44,265 nt of DNA from Erysipelotrichaceae bacterium (lineage in GTDB: Bacteria; Bacillota_I; Bacilli_A; Erysipelotrichales; Coprobacillaceae). The translations under genes and the position numbers were made by a program. The notes beneath the pieces were generated by a model that worked only from the letters and a program-made list of their open reading frames with translations, had not been told where the DNA came from and ran no database searches. Where the stretch lies: contig JAJQFG010000047.1 in the NCBI GenBank assembly GCA_021201315.1, positions 1-44,265 of the forward strand, in the 5' to 3' direction. Positions 20,455 through 29,719 of the stretch are shown piece by piece. How positions within the stretch are numbered: the stretch's first letter is position 1; the number at the start of each line of letters is the position of its first letter.

Positions 20455-21200
20455 TCTAAATATATTTCTTTTAATTTAGCAATCTTTGCTTGATCAACAT
20501 TGAGTTCTTTTTCAAAATATTCTTCATAAGAAGGATATTTTTCATGTATAGTTTTAATAACTAAACGAATATTTTCTTCTTGAACAAATAATAACTTATC
20601 TACATACTTTTTTACTAGATGAGCTGAAGGATGTTTTTTATAGAAATTAGCTACATAAGATTTTAAATAATCATTTGATTTCAAATATTCTTTAACACCA
20701 TCCTCTTCGCTCATGCCTAAGGCCATCATAATCAAAAAAGCACTAATACCAGTACGATCTTTTCCAGCTGAGCAATGGAAGTATATATGACCATTATCTT
20801 CTAATAAGATTTCAAATAAACGCTTATAAGCATCATTATTAAAAGGCATATACTTATAACCTAATTGTAAATATTCTAACATTCCTTTTAATTTTGCAAC
20901 TGTCATTTTTCCTGACATCATATTACCAAAATCAAAGCCTTCTTGATCATCAATATGAAGAGCAGAAATACGTTCATAAGTAGCTTTAGAAAAATGATAA
21001 TCTGGTGTTAGATTGGCTTCTTCCTCATCACGATAATCTAAAATATAACGAATACCTAACGTTTCTTCCATATAAGTTGCTTCTTCATCTGTAATTTGAT
21101 CTAACGCAGCACCTCTAAATATTTTACCTGATTTGATAGTTTTTCCGTCTTTATTTGTATATCCACTAAGCTCTCTAAAATTATTTATATTTAAATTCAT
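20451..21200 (-). CDS. Tyrosine-protein phosphatase (Tyr-phosphatase_3, IphP/LipA-like)
   Basis: The 249-residue protein has the P-loop HCSAGKDRTGISAF, which contains the Cys-x5-Arg catalytic signature with the extra K-D seen in atypical bacterial dual-specificity and phosphoinositide phosphatases. The N-terminus (NFRELSGYTNKDGKTIKSGKI then FRGAALDQI) is the usual family start. It is a cytoplasmic protein without a signal peptide. The ATG overlaps the stop of the dus gene (ATGA), so the two are coupled. Substrate unknown. Confidence 0.88.
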   Translation of the reverse strand: MNLNINNFRELSGYTNKDGKTIKSGKIFRGAALDQITDEEATYMEETLGIRYILDYRDEEEANLTPDYHFSKATYERISALHIDDQEGFDFGNMMSGKMTVAKLKGMLEYLQLGYKYMPFNNDAYKRLFEILLEDNGHIYFHCSAGKDRTGISAFLIMMALGMSEEDGVKEYLKSNDYLKSYVANFYKKHPSAHLVKKYVDKLLFVQEENIRLVIKTIHEKYPSYEEYFEKELNVDQAKIAKLKEIYLD

Positions 21201-22198
21201 AATATCTCCTTTAATTTTACCATATCACCAGTATGTAAATAATAACGATAACCTTCTAAAATACTTTCCAATTGTTGATAAGTATCAATTCTTGATAAAG
21301 CATTCTTAATTTGTGCTGACGATTTTAAACCTTTCATATACCATGGCGCATGTCCACGCATTTGTCGCATAGCATTCTTTTCACCTTCCATTGTTATTAA
21401 TCTTTGGGCATGTTGTAAGCATTGATCAATCTTTTCATCAAATGTTGGTTCCTCTAACAAAATACCTTCCTCTACATAAGATACCATTTGCTTAATAACC
21501 CAAGGATTTCCTAAAGCTGCTCGTCCTACCATGACTGCATCACATCCTGTTTTCTCTAACATACGTGAAGCATCTAATGCAGTTTTGACATCACCATTGC
21601 CTATAACTGGAATAGAAACAGCATCTTTTACTTGTTTAATATATGACCAATCAGCTTGTCCTTCATACATTTGCGAACGTGTTCTTGCATGTAAAGCAAT
21701 CGCACTTGCGCCAGCTTTTTCAACAATTTGAGCTACTTCAACACAATTAATAGAATGGGTATCATAGCCAAGCCTCATCTTCACAGTCACTGGTTTATCG
21801 ACTGTTTCAACCACATGACTAACAATATCATATATTAAATCAGGATATTGTAATAAGTAACTTCCTGCATGAGCTTTCAATACCTTATTAGCAGGACATC
21901 CCATATTAATATCAATGATATCACAATTAGAATGTTTATCTACAAACTTAGCAGCCATAACCATGGATTCTACTTCACCACCAAAGATTTGTATACTTAC
22001 TGGATGTTCATCCTCATCCACTTGTAACATATCAATTGTTTTTTGATTACCATAATATAAAGCTTTATCACTTACCATTTCACTAACAACCAAACTAGCA
22101 CCAAATTCTTTTATCATCTTACGAAATGCCACATTGGTTACACCAGCCATTGGTGCCATAATGATTCTATTCTTTAATTCAACTTGACCTATCTTCAT
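21197..22198 (-). CDS. dusB: tRNA-dihydrouridine synthase (DusB-like)
   Basis: The 333-residue FMN-dependent TIM-barrel enzyme reduces uridine in the D-loop of tRNA. Conserved blocks are IIMAPMAGVTNVAFRKM, VSIQIFGGEVESM, DINMGCPANKVLKAHAGSYLL (with the catalytic Cys in the GCP motif), KMRLGYD, HARTRSQMYEGQADW and IPVIGNGDV (FMN phosphate site). The C-terminal helical domain binds tRNA. It is first in a two-gene set with the phosphatase. The subclass B name is from overall similarity. Confidence 0.92.
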   Translation of the reverse strand: MKIGQVELKNRIIMAPMAGVTNVAFRKMIKEFGASLVVSEMVSDKALYYGNQKTIDMLQVDEDEHPVSIQIFGGEVESMVMAAKFVDKHSNCDIIDINMGCPANKVLKAHAGSYLLQYPDLIYDIVSHVVETVDKPVTVKMRLGYDTHSINCVEVAQIVEKAGASAIALHARTRSQMYEGQADWSYIKQVKDAVSIPVIGNGDVKTALDASRMLEKTGCDAVMVGRAALGNPWVIKQMVSYVEEGILLEEPTFDEKIDQCLQHAQRLITMEGEKNAMRQMRGHAPWYMKGLKSSAQIKNALSRIDTYQQLESILEGYRYYLHTGDMVKLKEIL

Positions 22199-22260
22199 TA
22201 TCTTTCACCACATTCCATAATATAACACAATTATTTTATAAAACAAAGATAAATCATTGG

Positions 22261-22394
22261 TATATTAATAATCGTAGAAAGTGATTTCTACAAAGTTAAT
22301 AATTTTTTCAAAAATTTTCTCTCTTCGATGATATATCTCTCCCATCCTAATATATCATCAAAAGGGAAACTGACATAATCAGTTTCCCTTTTTC
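22261..22394 (+). ncRNA. CU-rich small RNA, copy 1
   Basis: A predicted RNA of about 120 nt starts at 22274, seven bases after TATATT. Hairpin 1 is 22274-22291 (GTAGAAA with TTTCTAC). A single-stranded stretch ends in TTTTCTCTCT. Hairpin 2 has a perfect 10-bp stem (22327-22336 with 22350-22359) and presents CTCTCCCATCC in its loop. It ends in a terminator at 22364-22388. Copy 2 at 27818-27955 keeps the -10 box, hairpin 1, the linker and the loop, while the stem sequences differ but still pair. That pattern of compensatory change supports a selected RNA. A C-rich loop of this kind usually pairs with Shine-Dalgarno sequences. No match to a known family was recognised. Confidence 0.6.
22364..22388. 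terminator. Terminator of small RNA copy 1, also usable by the MerR gene
   Basis: A 10-bp GC-containing stem (GGGAAACTGA with TCAGTTTCCC) is followed by five T on the plus strand. On the minus strand a T4 run follows as well, so it can end both the RNA and the merR1 transcript. Confidence 0.85.
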
Positions 22395-22395
22395 T

Positions 22396-23670
22396 TTAAT
22401 CAATACTATTATATGTTACACCTCTAGGATTATCCAAATGATATTCCTTTGCAATTTGTCTAAAATGATTGTCTAAATACTTCTGTAATTCTACCTTATC
22501 TGTATAATTCTTCAACATATCATATATACCAATAGCATCATGTATTTCGATAAGATTGTTTTTTAATATGTCTAATATCTCTTTAATATTATTTAAAGAA
22601 TAACTTTCAAAATAATATTCATTATCTTTTGTATAAATATCCATATCTAAACAATACATCATATGACTACCAGGAGCAGTTCCTGCAATACCTGTTGCGA
22701 TTAGGCCAATCATTAATTTAATCAAATTGGATGATTTTATTGAAGGATTGTATATTCTACTACACAAGGATAAATGTATTTCTTGGATACTTGAATATGG
22801 AATACGAGTATCTTTTACTACAATATTATTATCAGTAAATAACAATGTATTCTTTTCATTTTTGTTATCCATAGAAAAGTAACTTTTTATTCTATGATTT
22901 TCTTTATAATTAATCGAATTACCATAATACTGCATATTTTTAATATCTAACATATGTATTGTCACCTCTTGTTTATCTTTCCATTTTTTAAAATGGTTAT
23001 TAATATATCGATACAAACCAACCATATCGTTATCGAATTGTTGATATATTTGTATAAGATTTAAAGGATCATTGATATCAATTTTCGCATTTATGAAAAC
23101 TTCAAATAATGGATTAACTTTATTGTTGTTCATTAATTGAAATGAATAAGTATCTTTAGCTGTTATAATATCTAAATCAACATAATAGAAATGATAATCA
23201 TAATATCCATCTCCAAATTTACTTGCATCTATGCCTAGTTTTATACTATTGATATCTCTCAAGTAAATAATAATTGACTCAAACTTAATACAATCATTAT
23301 GAACATATAGATTCTCATATTCATTATTCACTTCTCCATCTAAAACAATATTTACTTTTCTTCTTAACATATATTGATTAATCTTATCTGATATATCATC
23401 TAACTTATCTTTTGATACATATATCATTTCCTTTTTTGCTTCTAATGCATCTCTAATTGATAACTGATTGTTTAATATTAATTTTATTTCATCAATTGAT
23501 ATTTCCATAGTACGCATGAGTAGTATAAACTTTAATACATCCAAATCTTCACTAGAATAACTGCGATAATTATTCGCATCCCTTGCTGGTTTAATCAATC
23601 CTTCTTTTTCATAAAATATCAATGCTTGCTTAGTAATACCAAGTTCTTTCATCACTTCGCTTGTTGTCAT
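22396..23670 (-). CDS. MerR-family regulator with long C-terminal domain (copy 1)
   Basis: The 424-residue protein has an N-terminal MerR HTH (SEVMKELGITKQALIFYEKE, GLIKPARDANNYRSYSSEDL) and a dimerisation helix to about residue 100. A long unrecognised part follows, with a hydrophobic stretch near residue 325 (LIKLMIGLIATGIAGTAPG) flanked by a segment like bacterial PH domains (LLFTDNNIVVKDTRIPYSSI). The promoter has the 19-bp spacer typical of MerR-activated promoters, so it likely autoregulates. A second copy at 26014-26787 shares nearly identical DNA for the first ~130 codons, but the effector part diverges. The signal is unknown. Confidence 0.8.
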   Translation of the reverse strand: MTTSEVMKELGITKQALIFYEKEGLIKPARDANNYRSYSSEDLDVLKFILLMRTMEISIDEIKLILNNQLSIRDALEAKKEMIYVSKDKLDDISDKINQYMLRRKVNIVLDGEVNNEYENLYVHNDCIKFESIIIYLRDINSIKLGIDASKFGDGYYDYHFYYVDLDIITAKDTYSFQLMNNNKVNPLFEVFINAKIDINDPLNLIQIYQQFDNDMVGLYRYINNHFKKWKDKQEVTIHMLDIKNMQYYGNSINYKENHRIKSYFSMDNKNEKNTLLFTDNNIVVKDTRIPYSSIQEIHLSLCSRIYNPSIKSSNLIKLMIGLIATGIAGTAPGSHMMYCLDMDIYTKDNEYYFESYSLNNIKEILDILKNNLIEIHDAIGIYDMLKNYTDKVELQKYLDNHFRQIAKEYHLDNPRGVTYNSID

Positions 23671-23691
23671 GTTATCACCTTCCCTAATACT

Positions 23692-23722
23692 ATCATAACG
23701 TATATGCTTAGAATACAGTCAA
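23692..23722 (-). promoter_or_regulatory. MerR-type promoter with 19-bp spacer (merR copy 1)
   Basis: On the minus strand TTGACT and TATGAT are separated by 19 bp, the over-long spacing that MerR proteins correct by twisting DNA. The spacer contains an imperfect dyad (GTATtctaagcATATAC). Confidence 0.7.
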
Positions 23723-23784
23723 GCATTTTTATCACAAATAACATAAATTATTTATATTTTGTTTTCAAAATATACATCAAAAAA

Positions 23785-23807
23785 GGAAACTCACATATTC
23801 AGTTTCC
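23785..23807 (-). terminator. Small hairpin with T-run
   Basis: A 7-bp stem (GGAAACT with AGTTTCC) is followed on the minus strand by six T. It could end read-through from the AlbA_2 gene before the merR1 promoter. Confidence 0.5.
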
Positions 23808-23840
23808 AAGTTGTTCGATATAATATTTGCTTTATGCAAT

Positions 23841-23882
23841 TTTATCCCTAATTAGGGATAAAATCTTTTAATTTAGGGAAAA
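23841..23882. repeat. Operator-like module 1: palindrome plus third half-site
   Basis: The palindrome TTATCCCTAATTAGGGATAA (core of 23841-23862) is followed by a third half-site TAATTTAGGGA starting 28 bp after the palindrome start. The same arrangement recurs at 24160-24203 with the same 28-bp offset. The wider gap 23671-24224 holds these two modules, terminators and one copy of a dispersed repeat, and no gene that I can support. Confidence 0.6.
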
Positions 23883-23911
23883 ATAACAAGATAAAATTTC
23901 ATCTTGTTATT
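23882..23911. terminator. Bidirectional terminator-like hairpin
   Basis: A perfect 11-bp stem (AATAACAAGAT with ATCTTGTTATT, 8-nt loop) has T-rich sequence on its right and A-rich on its left. Confidence 0.55.
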
Positions 23912-24065
23912 TTTAATGTATTTACGTTTTGATTTTACAGCTCATGATTTTAAATTAACTATATAAAAAATTCATATCTGTTTAAAATGATATTTACTAA
24001 TTATTGGTTGATGATATAAATAATTCTATTAAAAGCAATTGTTCTTTATGTTATCTCTAATAAGC

Positions 24066-24093
24066 AATTTATTGAACTACCTCGCAGCAAGCT
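24066..24093. repeat. Dispersed 28-bp repeat, copy 1
   Basis: The 28 bp ending in CTACCTCGCAGCAAGCT are identical to 44120-44147, 20 kb away. Sequence after the repeat differs. The CAGCAAGCT centre can form a small hairpin. It resembles an insertion-sequence end or a REP-like repeat, not identified further. Confidence 0.55.
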
Positions 24094-24159
24094 ATAAGGT
24101 ATTAAAATGAACTTTTAATAAAGTTTTTTCGCACAATATTTTTGATTGCTAATTACAAA

Positions 24160-24203
24160 TTTATCCCTAATTAGAGATAAATTCCATTAAATTAGGGATA
24201 ATT
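24160..24203. repeat. Operator-like module 2: palindrome plus third half-site
   Basis: TTATCCCTAATTAGAGATAA (one base off the module-1 palindrome) is followed at the same 28-bp offset by TAAATTAGGGATAA. It sits directly downstream of the AlbA_2/winged-helix gene, 319 bp from module 1. Confidence 0.6.
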
Positions 24204-24224
24204 ATTAATTTTGCTAAGATAAAA

Positions 24225-25867
24225 TCATTTTAAAATATATTTTGCCCCTTTATTTTTACCAACTTGTTCCAAAATATTATCATGCGTCATTTTTCTTGTA
24301 TAGTAACCTGCCTGTTTATCTGTGCAACGACATAATCTTCTTATAGTTTCATTATTAATACTTTCATGAGTAGATAAATATTCTAAAATCAAATCCTTAG
24401 CTTTTAAATATGTAACTGACTTGTCCTGGACATATTTAATGCCAGATTTTAGTTTTTCATAAACAATAGAAGTAAACATATATACTCTTCCAGATAATTC
24501 GATAAAATCTTCATTTTCTAAAACTCTTAAACTGCTTTTAACCTCACTTATTGGTAATTGAGTCAACTCTGAGGCTTTTGATAAAGATATATCTTTATTG
24601 TCGTATAAATATCGTAATATCATAAGTTCAGATAGTGAAAATGATTTTATTCTTTTATCTTGGGTTTCAGCTATAAATCTAACAAAATTTTCATCATCAG
24701 TAGCACTATACAATGTCAATCTTATTGCATCCTTATATACTGTATATTCAGGATATGGCTTACCCATAGTAACCATTTCTCTATACATAATATCAATTCC
24801 TTGTCCAGATCTTTGCACGTATCTTAGACGTTGCAAGGTTTCTGCAATCAACTTATTACGGGGTACTGATGGATGAGTAATGATGTTTTTTCGCTAATAT
24901 CAGCCATGAATCCACCAGGACTTTCAATAACCAGCTTATCTGAATAATGCTTTACATATATTGAACCAGGGCTATCATAACGTCTGTGCGTATAAGCATT
25001 CAATAGAGCTTCTTGAAATACCCTTTCTGAAAAATCATATATTTCCAATCTGTATAAACCGACTTGAACATTAATCAAATGATTATAATCTTGTATTTTT
25101 TCTGTTAAACGATCAAGCACTGAAATAATAGGTAATTTTAAATCTAAACGATTATCGTATTCATCTCTATTATCATCACTATAATGCAAATATATACATT
25201 CTGCTTGTGACATATACTTTTTAATTGACGATTCTTTACCAACAAACAATAATCCTGCAACAGTGAGTTTAATTCCATCTGCAGTATCTTTAATTAAACA
25301 AAGATCTTTTAAAAAAGATATATCATCTAAATCTACCAAGGTGGAATTTCGATCTCTTTCTTTTAATTTTTCTTTTAACTTATATACCTCTAACAGATTA
25401 ATATCATCCTCATTACTACTTTGTATTATTTGTGAAGAATAATCTGCTTCTTCATCAAAAGTATTATCTATTTTCTCAGGCGTATATGGTTTGGAATTTT
25501 TGCCAAGTCTTTTATAATATTCACCAGATGATGTACCATAAAGTCTTCGACCTTTGCCAACATAAATAATGATGACATCTTTATTATCAATTGATACAAC
25601 TTCGGCTTTAGTAAACAAACTTGGGATCGTTCTATCATAAATGCTTTCTATAATGTTTTGAAGATCATAATTAGTACAACCAGTAATTGTTTTATCATCT
25701 TCAACACCTAGCAAAAGCATGCCACCCTCACAATTAGCGAATGCAACTATCTCTTTTACGCATAGATGAATAAGCTTTTTAAAATTAGGAGTTTCTTTCC
25801 AAGATTTGAATTCTACTTTAATATTTTCACCTAAATCGATAATATTTTGTAATTCATCTTTATTCAT
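24225..25867 (-). pseudogene. AlbA_2 / divergent AAA-4 regulator with C-terminal winged helix, frameshifted
   Basis: Two overlapping frames make one protein of about 547 residues. The first part (from ATG 25867, GGAGGTGA site) has the AlbA_2 domain (VEFKSWKETPNFKKL, AFANCEGGMLLLGVEDD) and the HATPase-like middle (FQEALLNAYTHRRYDSPGSI, IESPGGFM). The second part continues with RLRYVQRSGQGIDIMYREM and ends in winged-helix repeats. The break is in a 6-A run on the minus strand (24886-24891); adding one A joins ADISEKN to IITHPSVPRNKLIAETLQ, the usual family sequence. Such proteins are transcription regulators, often of phage or mobile functions. This may be a true pseudogene, a phase-variable tract or a sequencing error. 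Confidence 0.75.
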
Positions 25868-26013
25868 CTTAGTCACCTCCTACACATATCATTATAACAA
25901 ATCAAATATAAATATTAAATCGAATTATCTTATATTTATTATATCGAATTTTGCAAATTGCATCAATAATATATTTGCTAAAATCAACATTCCTATAAAT
26001 TATTCCTTTAAAA

Positions 26014-26787
26014 TTATTTCTTTCTTTTTAAATAACTATGATAATGATATACATCTTCTATACTAAATGTTTGTAATTCCAAATTATATTGTTTTGACCA
26101 TTTTTTGAAATGATTATTTAGATACCTATTTAGTCCTACCATATCATTGCGATATTGGTTATATACACCCATCAAATTTAATGGGTCATTAATCTTAATT
26201 GAAGTCTTTGATAATCTATCAAAATATTGTGTAACATATTTATTATTCATCAACTGGAAAGAATATGTATCATGATTAGTCACAATATCCATACTAATAT
26301 AATAGTATACTTCTATTTTAAAAAAGTGGTCATTATTAGTAGCCTTAATCATGATATTTATATAATCAATATCATCCATTAAAATACATATATCATCATA
26401 TATAAAACAATCATTATGAATATATAAATTTTCATATTCATTATTCACTTCTTCATCTAAAACAATGTTTACTTTTCTTCTTAACATATATTGATTAATC
26501 TTATCTGATATATCATCTAACTTATCTTTTGATACATATATCATTTCCTTTTTTGCTTCTAATGCATCTCTAATTGATAACTGATTGTTTAATATTAATT
26601 TTATTTCATCAATTGATATTTCCATAGTACGCATGAGTAGTATAAACTTTAATACATCCAAATCTTCACTAGAATAACTGCGATAATTATTCGCATCCCT
26701 TGCTGGTTTAATCAATCCTTCTTTTTCATAAAATATCAATGCTTGCTTAGTAATACCAAGTTCTTTCATCACTTCACTTGTTGTCAT
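26014..26787 (-). CDS. MerR-family regulator, shorter paralogue (copy 2)
   Basis: The 257-residue protein has an HTH and dimerisation part (residues 1-110) identical to copy 1 at 22396-23670. After about residue 115 it diverges, though it keeps recognisable blocks (DTYSFQLMNN, KINDPLNL, NDMVGL.RY.NNHFKKW). It ends where copy 1 goes on for another 170 residues, so it lacks the hydrophobic and PH-like part. Its promoter is the same 19-bp-spacer type. With identical recognition helices both proteins should bind the same sites, so copy 2 could act as competitor or be cross-regulated. It may be a truncated duplicate that is still expressed. Confidence 0.75.
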   Translation of the reverse strand: MTTSEVMKELGITKQALIFYEKEGLIKPARDANNYRSYSSEDLDVLKFILLMRTMEISIDEIKLILNNQLSIRDALEAKKEMIYVSKDKLDDISDKINQYMLRRKVNIVLDEEVNNEYENLYIHNDCFIYDDICILMDDIDYINIMIKATNNDHFFKIEVYYYISMDIVTNHDTYSFQLMNNKYVTQYFDRLSKTSIKINDPLNLMGVYNQYRNDMVGLNRYLNNHFKKWSKQYNLELQTFSIEDVYHYHSYLKRKK

Positions 26788-26807
26788 GTTATCACCTTCT
26801 TATTACT

Positions 26808-26838
26808 ATCATAACGTATATTCCTAGAATACAGTCAA
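26808..26838 (-). promoter_or_regulatory. MerR-type promoter with 19-bp spacer (merR copy 2)
   Basis: TTGACT and TATGAT are 19 bp apart on the minus strand. The spacer dyad GTATTCTAGGAATATAC is cleaner than in copy 1. Confidence 0.7.
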
Positions 26839-26893
26839 GTGATTTTATTAAATTTTACAAAAAAAGCGCCTTATAAGACGCAAAATATTCATA

Positions 26894-27721
26894 TCAATAA
26901 TTCAAATATGTTCCCTTGTACATGTCTGTGGTTTCAGCATTAGATGTTGTGAAACTTGATGTTTTATACAAAATGGTCAACGAACTGCACATATAAAACA
27001 TATAACTCATATCTTGAACATTTGTTGTATTAAAACTACCTAAATCTAGACTCTTCGATGAAACACATCCATAAAACATACGTTTCATATCAAGAACATG
27101 TGATGTATCAAAACTTGTTAGAGTTAGAGACGGAAGTGACATACATTCTCTAAACATATCAGCCATAACATATACACTTGATGTATTTAAACTAGATGTA
27201 TCTAAATCTTTTAATGAAGCACAGTAATAAAACATAAAACTCATATCTATTGCACGACCTGTATAAAAACAATCGTTAAAATGAATGCTTTCTAAATTAT
27301 TATATCCTGCAAATAAATATCTTGTATCAATATTCGCATCTACCCCTCCTTCGCCTGCAATATATAAATCATAAGGAATCTTATTATCACCAGAATCATT
27401 CACCCATGCCATAACTGACTGATCTACATTATCAGAAATATCCCAAGCATCAGCAGGTTTATTATCTAAGCCATCCAAAAATATAACATTTTTAACGGAA
27501 CTGCGTAAATAATTACTACCAAATACTGTACAACTATACTTAACACAATTATTCCATTCATCAGAAAAGCAAGTATAAGCATCAAAACCATTAGTATCGC
27601 TCATTATAACATTACCACTACTTTGTATAATAGTTTGTTCATAAGTATTGCTTTCGTTATTTGAGCATCCTATTAATATACATAATAAACCCATAAATGC
27701 TAATTTTAGATATTTTTTCAT
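26894..27721 (-). CDS. BspA-like surface lipoprotein (DUF285 repeats)
   Basis: The protein has 275 residues from ATG 27721; the in-frame ATG at 27727 is too close to GAGGCG. A signal peptide (MKKYLKLAFMGLLCI) leads to the lipobox LIGC, so it should be lipid-anchored. The second half has about five leucine-rich-like DUF285 repeats of roughly 24 residues (MSFMFYYCASLKDLDTSSLN, MADMFRECMSLPSLTLTSFD, MKRMFYGC..., MSYMFYMCSSL), as in BspA-type adhesins. The full C-terminal anchor and long repeat arrays of larger relatives are missing. Role probably in surface contact; partner unknown. Confidence 0.85.
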   Translation of the reverse strand: MKKYLKLAFMGLLCILIGCSNNESNTYEQTIIQSSGNVIMSDTNGFDAYTCFSDEWNNCVKYSCTVFGSNYLRSSVKNVIFLDGLDNKPADAWDISDNVDQSVMAWVNDSGDNKIPYDLYIAGEGGVDANIDTRYLFAGYNNLESIHFNDCFYTGRAIDMSFMFYYCASLKDLDTSSLNTSSVYVMADMFRECMSLPSLTLTSFDTSHVLDMKRMFYGCVSSKSLDLGSFNTTNVQDMSYMFYMCSSLTILYKTSSFTTSNAETTDMYKGTYLNY

Positions 27722-27817
27722 TATCATCGCCTCATTTTAAATATAATTGTATCACTATATTTTTTAAAATAACACAAATTACCATAATTTTTTGATATTA
27801 AAAAAACATTTTATGGG

Positions 27818-27955
27818 TATATTAATAATTGTAGAAAGAATTCTACAAATTAATAATTTTTTCAAAATTTTCTCTCTCAGGTGACATTCTCTCCCATCCA
27901 TATATGTCACCTAAAAAAATAGGAACTAAACTCTCTCACTTAGTTTCTTTTTTTG
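27818..27955 (+). ncRNA. CU-rich small RNA, copy 2
   Basis: It has the same architecture as copy 1: TATATT at 27818-27823, start near 27831, hairpin 1 (27831-27846, GTAGAA with TTCTAC), the same linker ending in TTTTCTCTCT, and hairpin 2 with stem AGGTGACAT/ATGTCACCT (27879-27887 with 27904-27912). The loop contains TCTCTCCCATCC. A terminator with loop ACTCTCTCAC ends near 27955. The hairpin-2 stem shares no sequence with copy 1 yet pairs fully. It stands upstream of the BspA-like gene in the opposite direction. Flank sequence outside 27818-27955 is not shared with copy 1. Confidence 0.6.
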
Positions 27956-27981: not shown

Positions 27982-28112
27982 TATAAATAGATAGCTTACA
28001 CTTTCCCCTCTGTTTTTCCTCCCTATTAAAATAGATGTAAGTTATCTAGTTATTCCTAATATTAATAAACTTAGAGAAAGAAGACAATCCCCCTGTCTTC
28101 TTTCTTGTTTTC
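27982..28112 (+). ncRNA. Second CU-rich small RNA candidate
   Basis: An 11-bp stem (27990-28000 with 28036-28046, one G-U pair) closes a 35-nt loop that contains CTTTCCCCTCTG and TTCCTCCC. After a spacer, a perfect 11-bp terminator stem (28076-28086 with 28094-28104) presents ATCCCCC in its loop and is followed by T-rich sequence. TATAAA at 27982-27987 is a possible -10 box, although the start would then fall slightly inside the stem. CCTCC is the exact complement of a Shine-Dalgarno core, so regulation of translation by pairing is the obvious idea. No coding potential seen. Confidence 0.5.
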
Positions 28113-28161: not shown

Positions 28162-28278
28162 ATGTTAGAAATTAAACATTTATCAAAAATATATCATTCT
28201 AAAGGTATGGAAGTTAAAGCTTTGGAAGATAACTATGTCACAATTGAAGAAATGAAAAAACACAATGTCTTAAATTAA
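28162..28278 (+). pseudogene. Remnant of an ABC transporter ATPase gene (N-terminal 23 codons)
   Basis: With GGGAGG upstream, the frame begins MLEIKHLSKIYHSKGMEVKA and then LED, a textbook start of a LolD/MacB-type ABC ATPase. It then switches to unrelated residues and stops after 38 codons. No Walker motif remains and nothing similar follows downstream. It is probably the scar of a deletion that removed the transporter. The end (CACAATGT and ACATTGTG) forms a hairpin. Confidence 0.55.
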
Positions 28279-28391: not shown

Positions 28392-28480
28392 AAGAGGGAA
28401 CTATCAATTACGATTGTTCTTCAAAAAATAGAAGTTATAAATAATCGCCCAAGATTGGAAGGCTGGGGCGATTATTTTTT
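28392..28480 (+). ncRNA. Antitoxin RNA of the holin-like type I locus
   Basis: A short RNA of about 90 nt is predicted from the promoter at 28357-28384 to the terminator at 28440-28476. It is convergent with the toxin gene and overlaps its 3' end through the shared terminator, giving complementarity there. Its 5' part (GGAACTATCA, then CGATTGTTCTTC at 28397-28422) is the same sequence found at the 5' end of the toxin mRNA, as an inverted repeat in the DNA. The 193-bp stretch before the toxin holds no other gene. Confidence 0.55.
28440..28476. terminator. Bidirectional terminator of toxin locus 2
   Basis: A perfect 11-bp stem (AATAATCGCCC with GGGCGATTATT) has a 15-nt loop and a T-run on the right. 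On the left, A/T-rich sequence serves the minus strand. It overlaps the toxin stop codon. Confidence 0.8.
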
Positions 28481-28573
28481 GTTTGAAGTTACATAAACAA
28501 TTAATGCTAATATAAAGCTTGCAAATGCACAAAGCATTATGACAAACTGAAATAATTCAGCATATGAAACCAT
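28472..28573 (-). CDS. 33-residue holin-like type I toxin
   Basis: The peptide is MVSYAELFQFVIMLCAFASF, then ILALIVYVTSNKK: one hydrophobic helix with a basic tail, as in the TxpA/BsrG and 'putative holin-like toxin' group. GGAGG lies 7 bp before the ATG. A TATAAT box on the minus strand at 28693-28698 gives an mRNA leader of about 110 nt that can fold strongly, which is typical of type I toxins whose full-length mRNA is translationally inert. The convergent RNA at 28392-28480 is the likely antitoxin. Confidence 0.72.
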   Translation of the reverse strand: MVSYAELFQFVIMLCAFASFILALIVYVTSNKK

Positions 28574-28736: not shown

Positions 28737-28760
28737 AAACTCCAGAGTGATCTGGAGTTT
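28737..28760. terminator. Terminator after hslO
   Basis: A 10-bp stem (AAACTCCAGA with TCTGGAGTTT) with a GTGA tetraloop overlaps the hslO stop. T-rich sequence follows on the minus strand. Confidence 0.85.
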
Positions 28761-29622
28761 ATTTTATAAGTTCTCTTAATTCATCTTCACTAAATTGATA
28801 GTGTGTATTACAGAAATGACAAGTGATTTCACAACCGTGATCTTCGTCAATCATAGCTTGGATTTCCTGTTTTCCTACAGTCATTAAAGCTTCTTTCATT
28901 TTATCTTTAGAACAATCACATTCAAAATAAAGATCTTGATAGTCTAAGATTTCAACACCATCAAAGATAAGTTCCAATATTTCTTCAGGTGTTTTGCCTT
29001 CGTGAATAAGGGTTGAAACAGGTGTGAAGTCTTTTATTTTATTTTCAATATAAGTGATATCTTCATCTGTAGCATCAGGTAATACTTGAATAATGAAGCC
29101 ACCGCTTGCTAATATTTCATTTGTAGTATCAACTAAGACACCGACAGATACAACAGATGGCGTTTGTTCTGATACCATGAAGTAGTATGAAAAATCATCA
29201 CCAATTTCACCTGTTTGTAAAGGAACAGTCCCTACAAACGGTTCCTTTAATCCCATATCTCGAATTACTTGTAAAGTCCCTTGATTTCCGACTGCAACGC
29301 CAACCGCTAATTTACCCGTATCATTATATGTATAATGAACATGTGGTTCGGCTACAAAAGCTTTGATTTTACCATCACTATTTGTTGTGGCTAATATTGT
29401 TCCAATAGGTCCACCACCGTTAATATTAACAGTCATTTTTTCATGATTTTTATTGTTAGCAGCCATCATTAAGGTTGCTGCCATGGTTCTGCCAAGTACA
29501 GCAGAAGCCGTTGGCCAAAGATCATGTTTTACTCTAGCAACTTCTGTAAGATTGGTTGTATTACAGGCAAAAACACGACAATTTCTAGAAGGTGATATAC
29601 CTCTTACTAAATAATCTTTCAT
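28759..29622 (-). CDS. hslO: Redox-regulated chaperone Hsp33
   Basis: The 287-residue protein starts MKDYLVRGIS at 29622, with GGGAGG 6 bp upstream. The N-terminal substrate-binding domain has LGRTMAATLMMA and the GGGPIGTILATT loop. The C-terminal redox switch has the four zinc cysteines as CDC and CHFC (FECDCSKDK; ITCHFCNTHY). On oxidation the zinc is lost and the holdase becomes active. It is the last gene of the ftsH-small ORF-hslO cluster. The Bacillus gene order is the same apart from coaX, which is missing here. Confidence 0.95.
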   Translation of the reverse strand: MKDYLVRGISPSRNCRVFACNTTNLTEVARVKHDLWPTASAVLGRTMAATLMMAANNKNHEKMTVNINGGGPIGTILATTNSDGKIKAFVAEPHVHYTYNDTGKLAVGVAVGNQGTLQVIRDMGLKEPFVGTVPLQTGEIGDDFSYYFMVSEQTPSVVSVGVLVDTTNEILASGGFIIQVLPDATDEDITYIENKIKDFTPVSTLIHEGKTPEEILELIFDGVEILDYQDLYFECDCSKDKMKEALMTVGKQEIQAMIDEDHGCEITCHFCNTHYQFSEDELRELIK

Positions 29623-29623
29623 A

Positions 29624-29719
29624 TTATCCTCCCATCGCAAAATAACTTATTAAAGGAATGACCATGCATAAAACTAAAATTGTAATTAATATTTTACTCA
29701 TTGTACTACGTTTCATCAT
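29624..29719 (-). CDS. 31-residue single-helix membrane peptide
   Basis: The small frame reads MMKRSTMSKILITILVLCMV, then IPLISYFAMGG, behind GGAGAG. A basic N-terminus with one hydrophobic helix predicts a small membrane peptide. Its last codons (GGA GGA TAA) contain the Shine-Dalgarno sequence of hslO and the stop lies 2 bp before the hslO ATG, so translation of the two is coupled. It might modulate the membrane protease FtsH encoded just upstream, as small membrane peptides do in other bacteria, or serve as a leader for hslO. Confidence 0.5.
   Translation of the reverse strand: MMKRSTMSKILITILVLCMVIPLISYFAMGG

Follow-up and report, generated by a model that had tools for sequence, protein, structure and literature searches.

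A duplicated candidate small RNA gene with a C-rich hairpin loop and a strongly conserved CU-rich linker beside dusB in a gut Erysipelotrichales family

Our analysis showed that the window, a 44,265-nucleotide stretch of DNA corresponding to contig C133 of the 2.99 Mb draft genome of an Erysipelotrichaceae bacterium (host family f1, genus g1), carries two copies of a small gene, which we call sRNA-1. Judged by its pyruvate-formate-lyase-like gene, the host is closest among named relatives to MAGs labelled Erysipelotrichaceae bacterium, followed by Thomasclavelia, Massilimicrobiota and Candidatus Stoquefichus. Each copy is composed of a -10 box, a 5' hairpin, a CU-rich linker, a hairpin with a C-rich loop and a terminator (Table 1), and as far as can be read from the DNA both are complete sRNA genes that are apparently non-coding. 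We consider it probable that sRNA-1a and sRNA-1b are trans-acting sRNAs that repress translation by pairing at ribosome-binding sites, a proposal that builds on their anatomy, conservation, structural constraint and synteny. The initial annotation had placed the two copies at 22261-22394 and 27818-27955, with a shared -10 box, first hairpin, linker ending in TTTTCTCTCT, second hairpin with CTCTCCCATCC and terminator; both copies are located there and contain all of these parts. Its description of a duplicated sRNA gene with a C-rich loop, of the anti-Shine-Dalgarno (SD) kind known from Gram-positive bacteria, is supported by our results, which do not extend to membership of the RsaE family.

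Table 1. Coordinates of the sRNA-1 copies, their parts and their neighbours in the window.
Feature	Coordinates	Strand	Remarks
dusB	21197..22198	-	Divergent neighbour; identifies the site throughout the family
sRNA-1 copy a, predicted transcript	22274..22395	+	Fold z -8.1; orthologues L003 and L004
Copy a extended -10 box TTGGTATATT, TATATT	22261..22266	+	TG at 22258-22259; intergenic region common to the divergent dusB promoter
Copy a 5' hairpin GUAGAAAGUGAUUUCUAC	22274..22291	+	GUAGGAGGYGAU in its place in most outgroups
Copy a CU-rich single-stranded linker	22296..22324	+	Can pair with initiation regions made up of an SD and AUG AAA AAA type codons
Copy a hairpin 2, C-rich loop CUCUCCCAUCCUA	22327..22359	+	Folding
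Copy a intrinsic terminator	22360..22392	+	0.0 expected in shuffles
sRNA-1 copy b, predicted transcript	27831..27955	+	Fold z -5.6; orthologues L005 and L006
Copy b -10 box TATATT	27818..27823	+	Sequence
Copy b 5' hairpin	27831..27846	+	Folding
Copy b linker	27850..27877	+	Alignment of g1 copies
Copy b hairpin 2, loop UCUCUCCCAUCCAUAU	27879..27912	+	0/500 shuffles
Copy b terminator hairpin, loop CUCUCUCA	27915..27954	+	Folding
sRNA-c	27989..28106	+	Fold z -7.6 vs -2.8 for the opposite strand; directly after copy b
hslO (Hsp33)	28759..29640	-	ORF, named by sequence inference and a like C-terminal reading at outgroup loci; far flank

The strand and +1 of sRNA-1 are predicted. Copies a and b each have a folding energy below that of all 200 of their dinucleotide shuffles, and a search of the host draft genome found no third copy. 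Within the window, these two loci are the only ones where a stem of at least 8 bp encloses a C-rich motif; in a genome sample of about 350 kb, such a stem is present at one of 18 sites with the motif. Neither copy is overlapped by an ORF of convincing size or conservation: copy a has a single ORF of 26 codons on the opposite strand, while copy b has two overlapping ORFs of 28-30 codons on the same strand, absent from copy a, and one of 43 codons on the opposite strand. With a promoter, a terminator and no convincing ORF, sRNA-1 has the organisation of a stand-alone gene.

Orthologues of both copies are present in two sister species, and comparison of the resulting six g1 copies, to which G000, G001 and G002 contribute two each, shows that the most constrained part of the RNA is the linker, rather than the loop that the initial annotation had singled out as conserved. 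None of the 29 linker columns is substituted, compared to 40 of the 83 other ungapped transcript columns (hypergeometric P 2e-7, ignoring the kinship of the copies), and the only difference within the linker is the insertion or deletion of a single A. The CCC of the loop, on the other hand, has been lost in two of the six copies, both of them copy a orthologues, which have TCTCATGTCC and TCTCATATCC. The stems of the second hairpin had been described as completely different in sequence between the two copies, but they align in register (GATGATATAT vs AGGTGACAT), and wholly different stems are seen only in other genera. In stem 2, both partners are changed at two of the eight pairs, and 95.6% of its cells are able to pair; these two-sided changes, and the different yet pairing stems of the other genera, uphold the earlier claim of selection on the structure of this hairpin. 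The first hairpin, also claimed as a shared feature, is present in both host copies and is down to 4 bp in one orthologue (G002a). Identity is 88-91% among a copies and 90-98% among b copies but 72-80% between a and b; each kind is thus closer to its own than to the other, indicating that the duplication predates the split of the g1 species. We found no sRNA-1 in G003, where its absence may reflect an assembly gap since dusB and sRNA-c are also missing from this genome.

Direct DNA and covariance searches at the family level, run with strict filters over more than 40 genomes, found no sRNA-1 beyond genus g1, and we therefore inspected the strand divergent from dusB across the family. A single intergenic design was found in 11 genomes belonging to five genera, consisting of the dusB promoter, a divergent TG.TATA.T box that is invariant in all 11 orthologous intergenic regions, and a short RNA with a terminator. 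The sRNA-1 site thus occurs in four genera besides g1. Most of these genomes have a C-rich motif in a hairpin loop (CUCUCCCAUCC, ACUCCCAUCCC, CUUCCCUCCCAUCC and CCCUCUCCCAU), G028 being an exception in that its C-rich stretch is located in the linker. The stems that close the loops (GAUGAUAUAU, AGAGUGAC, GUAACAUC, ACAAUGUA and others) are unrelated in sequence from one genus to the next and have nevertheless kept their pairing. All 13 hairpins that we folded fall below their shuffle mean (z -2.1 to -5.4), with the C-rich motif 88-100% unpaired within a conserved structure; the weakest is that of G006, for which 22 of 500 shuffles were equally low. When a model built from g1 sequences only (R1) was scored without filters over 23 dusB flanks, it gave 11 weak matches, four of which (L190, L197, L193 and L191) are at the expected site and strand, where we estimate that about 0.3 would be expected. 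A sequence-only model built from the outgroup RNAs (R3) did not recover the g1 copies, and orthology between genera is therefore deduced from site, promoter and architecture. In our view this synteny is better evidence than the covarying stems of the two copies on which the initial annotation had relied. That annotation would have been contradicted by a lack of further copies with compensatory changes, and such copies are found in the two sister species and, at the dusB site, in the four other genera. Matches elsewhere were discarded: three in more distant DNA of the family (L089, L090 and L091) lie in or at coding sequence, and of two at the level of the order, one (L124) is antisense over the start of a lipoprotein gene and the other (L119) extends over the end of an opposite-strand coding frame.

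The 5' ends of the RNAs at the dusB site are of two kinds. In six outgroup genomes (G004, G005, G006, G027, G032 and G033), the sequence AGGAGGYGAU (Y = U or C), a perfect SD, lies at the predicted 5' end or at most 3 bases from it; the corresponding loci are L190, L193, L194, L195, L196 and L197. Pairing of these six 5' ends with the 16S tail amounts to -13.6 to -17.6 kcal/mol, with 0-24 of 500 shuffles as low, and their pairing with the body of their own RNA is not specific. No start codon is found at a usable distance from this SD. The g1 copies instead have a hairpin near the 5' end, as do the RNAs at this site in G028, G010 and G013. Both 5' hairpins and ribosome-binding sites are known to stabilise RNA in B. 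subtilis (PMC3997798), and an SD that protects without translation has a precedent in the STAB-SD (PMC4113751), which near the 5' end of Bacillus cry3A leaders binds the 30S subunit without initiation and blocks RNase J1 (PMC4113751, PMC3997798). Judging by its perfect match and the missing start codon, the outgroup SD is probably a STAB-SD-like 5' cap, through which the 30S subunit would protect sRNA-1 from RNase J1. It differs from the cry3A case in being carried by a small RNA and in occurring only in the outgroups, with a function read from sequence. More speculatively, sRNA-1 might be a lineage with interchangeable 5' protection modules, either an SD (AGGAGGUGAU or AGGAGGCGAU) capped by 30S against RNase J1 or a hairpin, the latter being the form in g1 and in one species each of three other genera. 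We would give this idea only a modest chance of being right; if true, it would add a new variant, a regulatory RNA capped by the ribosome while itself blocking ribosome sites.

We compared sRNA-1 with RsaE/RoxS, LhrC and the csRNAs, and on our best reading it would work like them, judging by its anatomy, but belongs to none of them. No Rfam 15 family reaches its threshold for sRNA-1, in keeping with the earlier suggestion that it belongs to no described family. Like RsaE/RoxS of Staphylococcus and Bacillus, it has C-rich regions of the type that bind SD sequences, and its 10-mer UCUCCCAUCC is a stretch of the RsaE consensus; this part of the RsaE C-rich region (UCUCCCAUCCCC) is identical in host copies a and b and lost in two copy a orthologues. 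It differs from RsaE, which is under ResD/SrrA-type control (PMC4409812), in being duplicated and in lacking the 5' half of that RNA. The LhrC family of Listeria (LhrC1-5, Rli22 and Rli33-1) has UCCC or CU-rich motifs in a loop, the linker stretch and the terminator loop, and acts mostly on mRNAs for surface proteins, with oppA among its targets (PMC4132741, PMC8079631). sRNA-1 resembles this family in being multicopy, and it shares oppA as a prediction only; it has two copies rather than seven, an additional 5' hairpin and no UCCC in its linker. Indeed, its UCCC is confined to loop 2, where LhrC would have the motif in loop A and in the linker, and in LhrC1-5 also in the terminator loop, and LhrC is not among the Rfam matches of sRNA-1 or sRNA-c up to E 1. 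The csRNAs of Streptococcus consist of a 5' hairpin, an unpaired linker complementary to the SD plus start codon, and a terminator hairpin (PMC3091779). The csRNA model (RF02379) matches copy b only, at 21.3 bits compared to a gathering score of 57. Here too there are several copies with a 5' hairpin and a terminator hairpin, and UUUUUUCA...UCUC of the copy b linker aligns with the csRNA model. The sRNA-1 linker complements SD plus UUG/AUG AAA AAA initiation regions, but its average affinity is not above that of shuffles. sRNA-1 differs in having a separate C-rich hairpin between linker and terminator. A literature search found nothing on either sRNA-1 or sRNA-c.

In the mechanism that we propose, each sRNA-1 copy would be transcribed from its own -10 promoter and end at its intrinsic terminator. 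The C-rich loop of hairpin 2 (CUCUCCCAUCC) would be the site of first contact with G-rich SD sequences, after which the linker (UUAAUAAUUUUUUCnAAAAUUUUCUCUCU) would pair over the SD, the AUG and the first codons of mRNAs of the AUG-AAA-AAA type and so block the ribosome. The 5' end would be shielded from 5'-3' decay by its hairpin in g1 and by the STAB-SD-type sequence in most outgroups, and sRNA-1 would work beside sRNA-c, the second C-rich RNA of the locus. The loop and the linker are the accessible elements of sRNA-1, and UCCC-type motifs in loops or linkers are proven to contact SD sequences in RsaE, LhrC and further sRNAs of Gram-positive bacteria (PMC4132741, PMC4409812). The reverse complement of the linker (AGAGAG-AAAATTT-TTG-AAA-AAA-TTA-TTA-A) resembles the initiation region of an MKKLL signal peptide. 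The target prediction called for by the initial annotation yielded two candidates, both with duplexes that cover the SD and the first codons. The best duplex in a sample of 425 initiation regions is with valS (-25.4 kcal/mol), a minimum reached by none of 60 shuffles of linker a and by seven of 60 of linker b, and a genome-wide search with the linker gave oppA (-25.1 kcal/mol, from the SD to codon 5). However, the mean affinity of the linker over the 425 regions is no better than that of its own dinucleotide shuffles (as low in 15 of 60 for a and 51 of 60 for b), and general anti-SD affinity is thus explained by base composition. oppA was not found in the sister species, and the complementarity to valS weakens from its host value to -21.2 kcal/mol in G001 and -19.4 in G002. 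oppA and valS are therefore leads only, weak predictions made from sequence.

Several other explanations of sRNA-1 were weighed against trans-acting repression. It could serve mainly as a sponge or decoy, its C-rich loops and SD-like 5' ends pairing with regulatory RNAs such as sRNA-c, or with the ribosome, instead of mRNAs. This would fit with sRNA-1 and sRNA-c adjoining each other in g1 and other genera, with the match of the outgroup 5' ends to the 16S tail, and with the RNA sponge known for the C-rich sRNA RoxS (PMC8216469). We nonetheless think it improbable, given that in most genomes the 5' SD pairs with the sRNA-c loops no better than shuffles do, that the C-rich loops are not complementary to one another, and that g1 has kept and even duplicated its copies without an SD-like end. 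We see only a slim chance of an action in cis, with sRNA-1 as a leader or 3' structure, or as a convergent transcript whose transcriptional interference controls the MerR gene (copy a) or the promoters of dusB/DUF285. Although the end of copy a coincides with the stop codon of a convergent MerR gene, and the gene divergent from either copy has its promoter close by, each copy has its own terminator with no same-strand gene directly downstream, and the hairpin with its C-rich loop is still there at outgroup sites where MerR and DUF285 were not seen.

Of the two remaining explanations, both concern what sRNA-1 is rather than how it acts. That it is a distant member of the RsaE/RoxS family seems to us very unlikely. 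The RsaE model (RF01820) does match copy a, with the identical UCUCCCAUCC and the 3' terminator in register, but its 21.9 bits fall short of the gathering score of 79; nothing in copy b is matched up to E 1, and the RsaE 5' half is missing. Moreover, UCUCCCAUCC is also found in the sRNA-c terminator loop of G012, showing that this stretch can recur independently. An accidental hairpin or repeat that makes no sRNA, which the AT-richness of the region might bring to mind, is highly improbable: sRNA-1 is kept in two sister species and has positional counterparts in four other genera, the shuffles and motif counts exclude chance, and sRNA-1 has no matches in plasmids, phages or viral contigs.

The second predicted C-rich RNA of the locus, sRNA-c, was missed by the initial annotation. 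It consists of a hairpin AGAUAGCUUACA...UGUAAGUUAUC enclosing CUUUCCCCUCU and UUUUUCCUCCC, a AUUCCUAAUAUU linker and a terminator with a CCCCC loop, its C-rich stretches thus lying in the long hairpin and the terminator loop. It has no Rfam match. A covariance model (R2) found exactly one sRNA-c in 31 of 43 family genomes, representing 12 genera; outside the family, the order yielded only a marginal match and a class-wide sample yielded nothing. sRNA-c is more strongly conserved than sRNA-1. It lies near dusB in most genomes, about 45 bases after sRNA-1 in G027 and G032, and the ancestral order was likely dusB - sRNA-1 - sRNA-c - hslO. In g1, a block of other genes separates the sRNA-1 copies, copy a still adjoining dusB and copy b still adjoining sRNA-c.

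The literature search found no description of sRNA-based regulation in this gut Erysipelotrichales family. The dusB-hslO interval brings together two C-rich sRNAs, one strongly conserved over 12 genera and the other fast-evolving and duplicated, and may offer a compact system for studying the diversification of anti-SD RNAs and the shielding of sRNAs from 5'-3' decay. sRNA-1 and sRNA-c could be added to Rfam as two RNA families.

Some further features of the region were noted. The block between the sRNA-1 copies (22396-27727) contains two MerR genes whose products are nearly identical at the N-terminus and differ at the C-terminus, together with one AlbA/Schlafen-like gene, one winged-helix gene and one for a DUF285/PARCEL lipoprotein. 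It is shorter in G002, at about 2.2 kb. The sRNA-1 copies form direct repeats around this block, as after insertion or Campbell-type integration. Beyond sRNA-c, a truncated remnant of an ABC transporter ATPase (MLEIKHLSKIYHSKGMEVKALED...) lies at 28163-28278 on the plus strand; in G002 (L008), a longer copy of the ABC ATPase at the same place adjoins a permease gene. On the minus strand, a hydrophobic peptide of 33 residues (MVSYAELFQFVIMLCAFASFILALIVYVTSNKK) encoded at 28472-28573 next to a strong hairpin (about 28447-28475) resembles a type I toxin accompanied by its antisense RNA. Lastly, Eggerthia (G014) carries an sRNA-like element after tRNA-Lys (L120:1514-1610), with a 5' hairpin, a linker containing CUUCCCC and UUUUCUCU, and a terminator; it has no convincing relative elsewhere, and it matches model R1 at 30 bits with the right shape.
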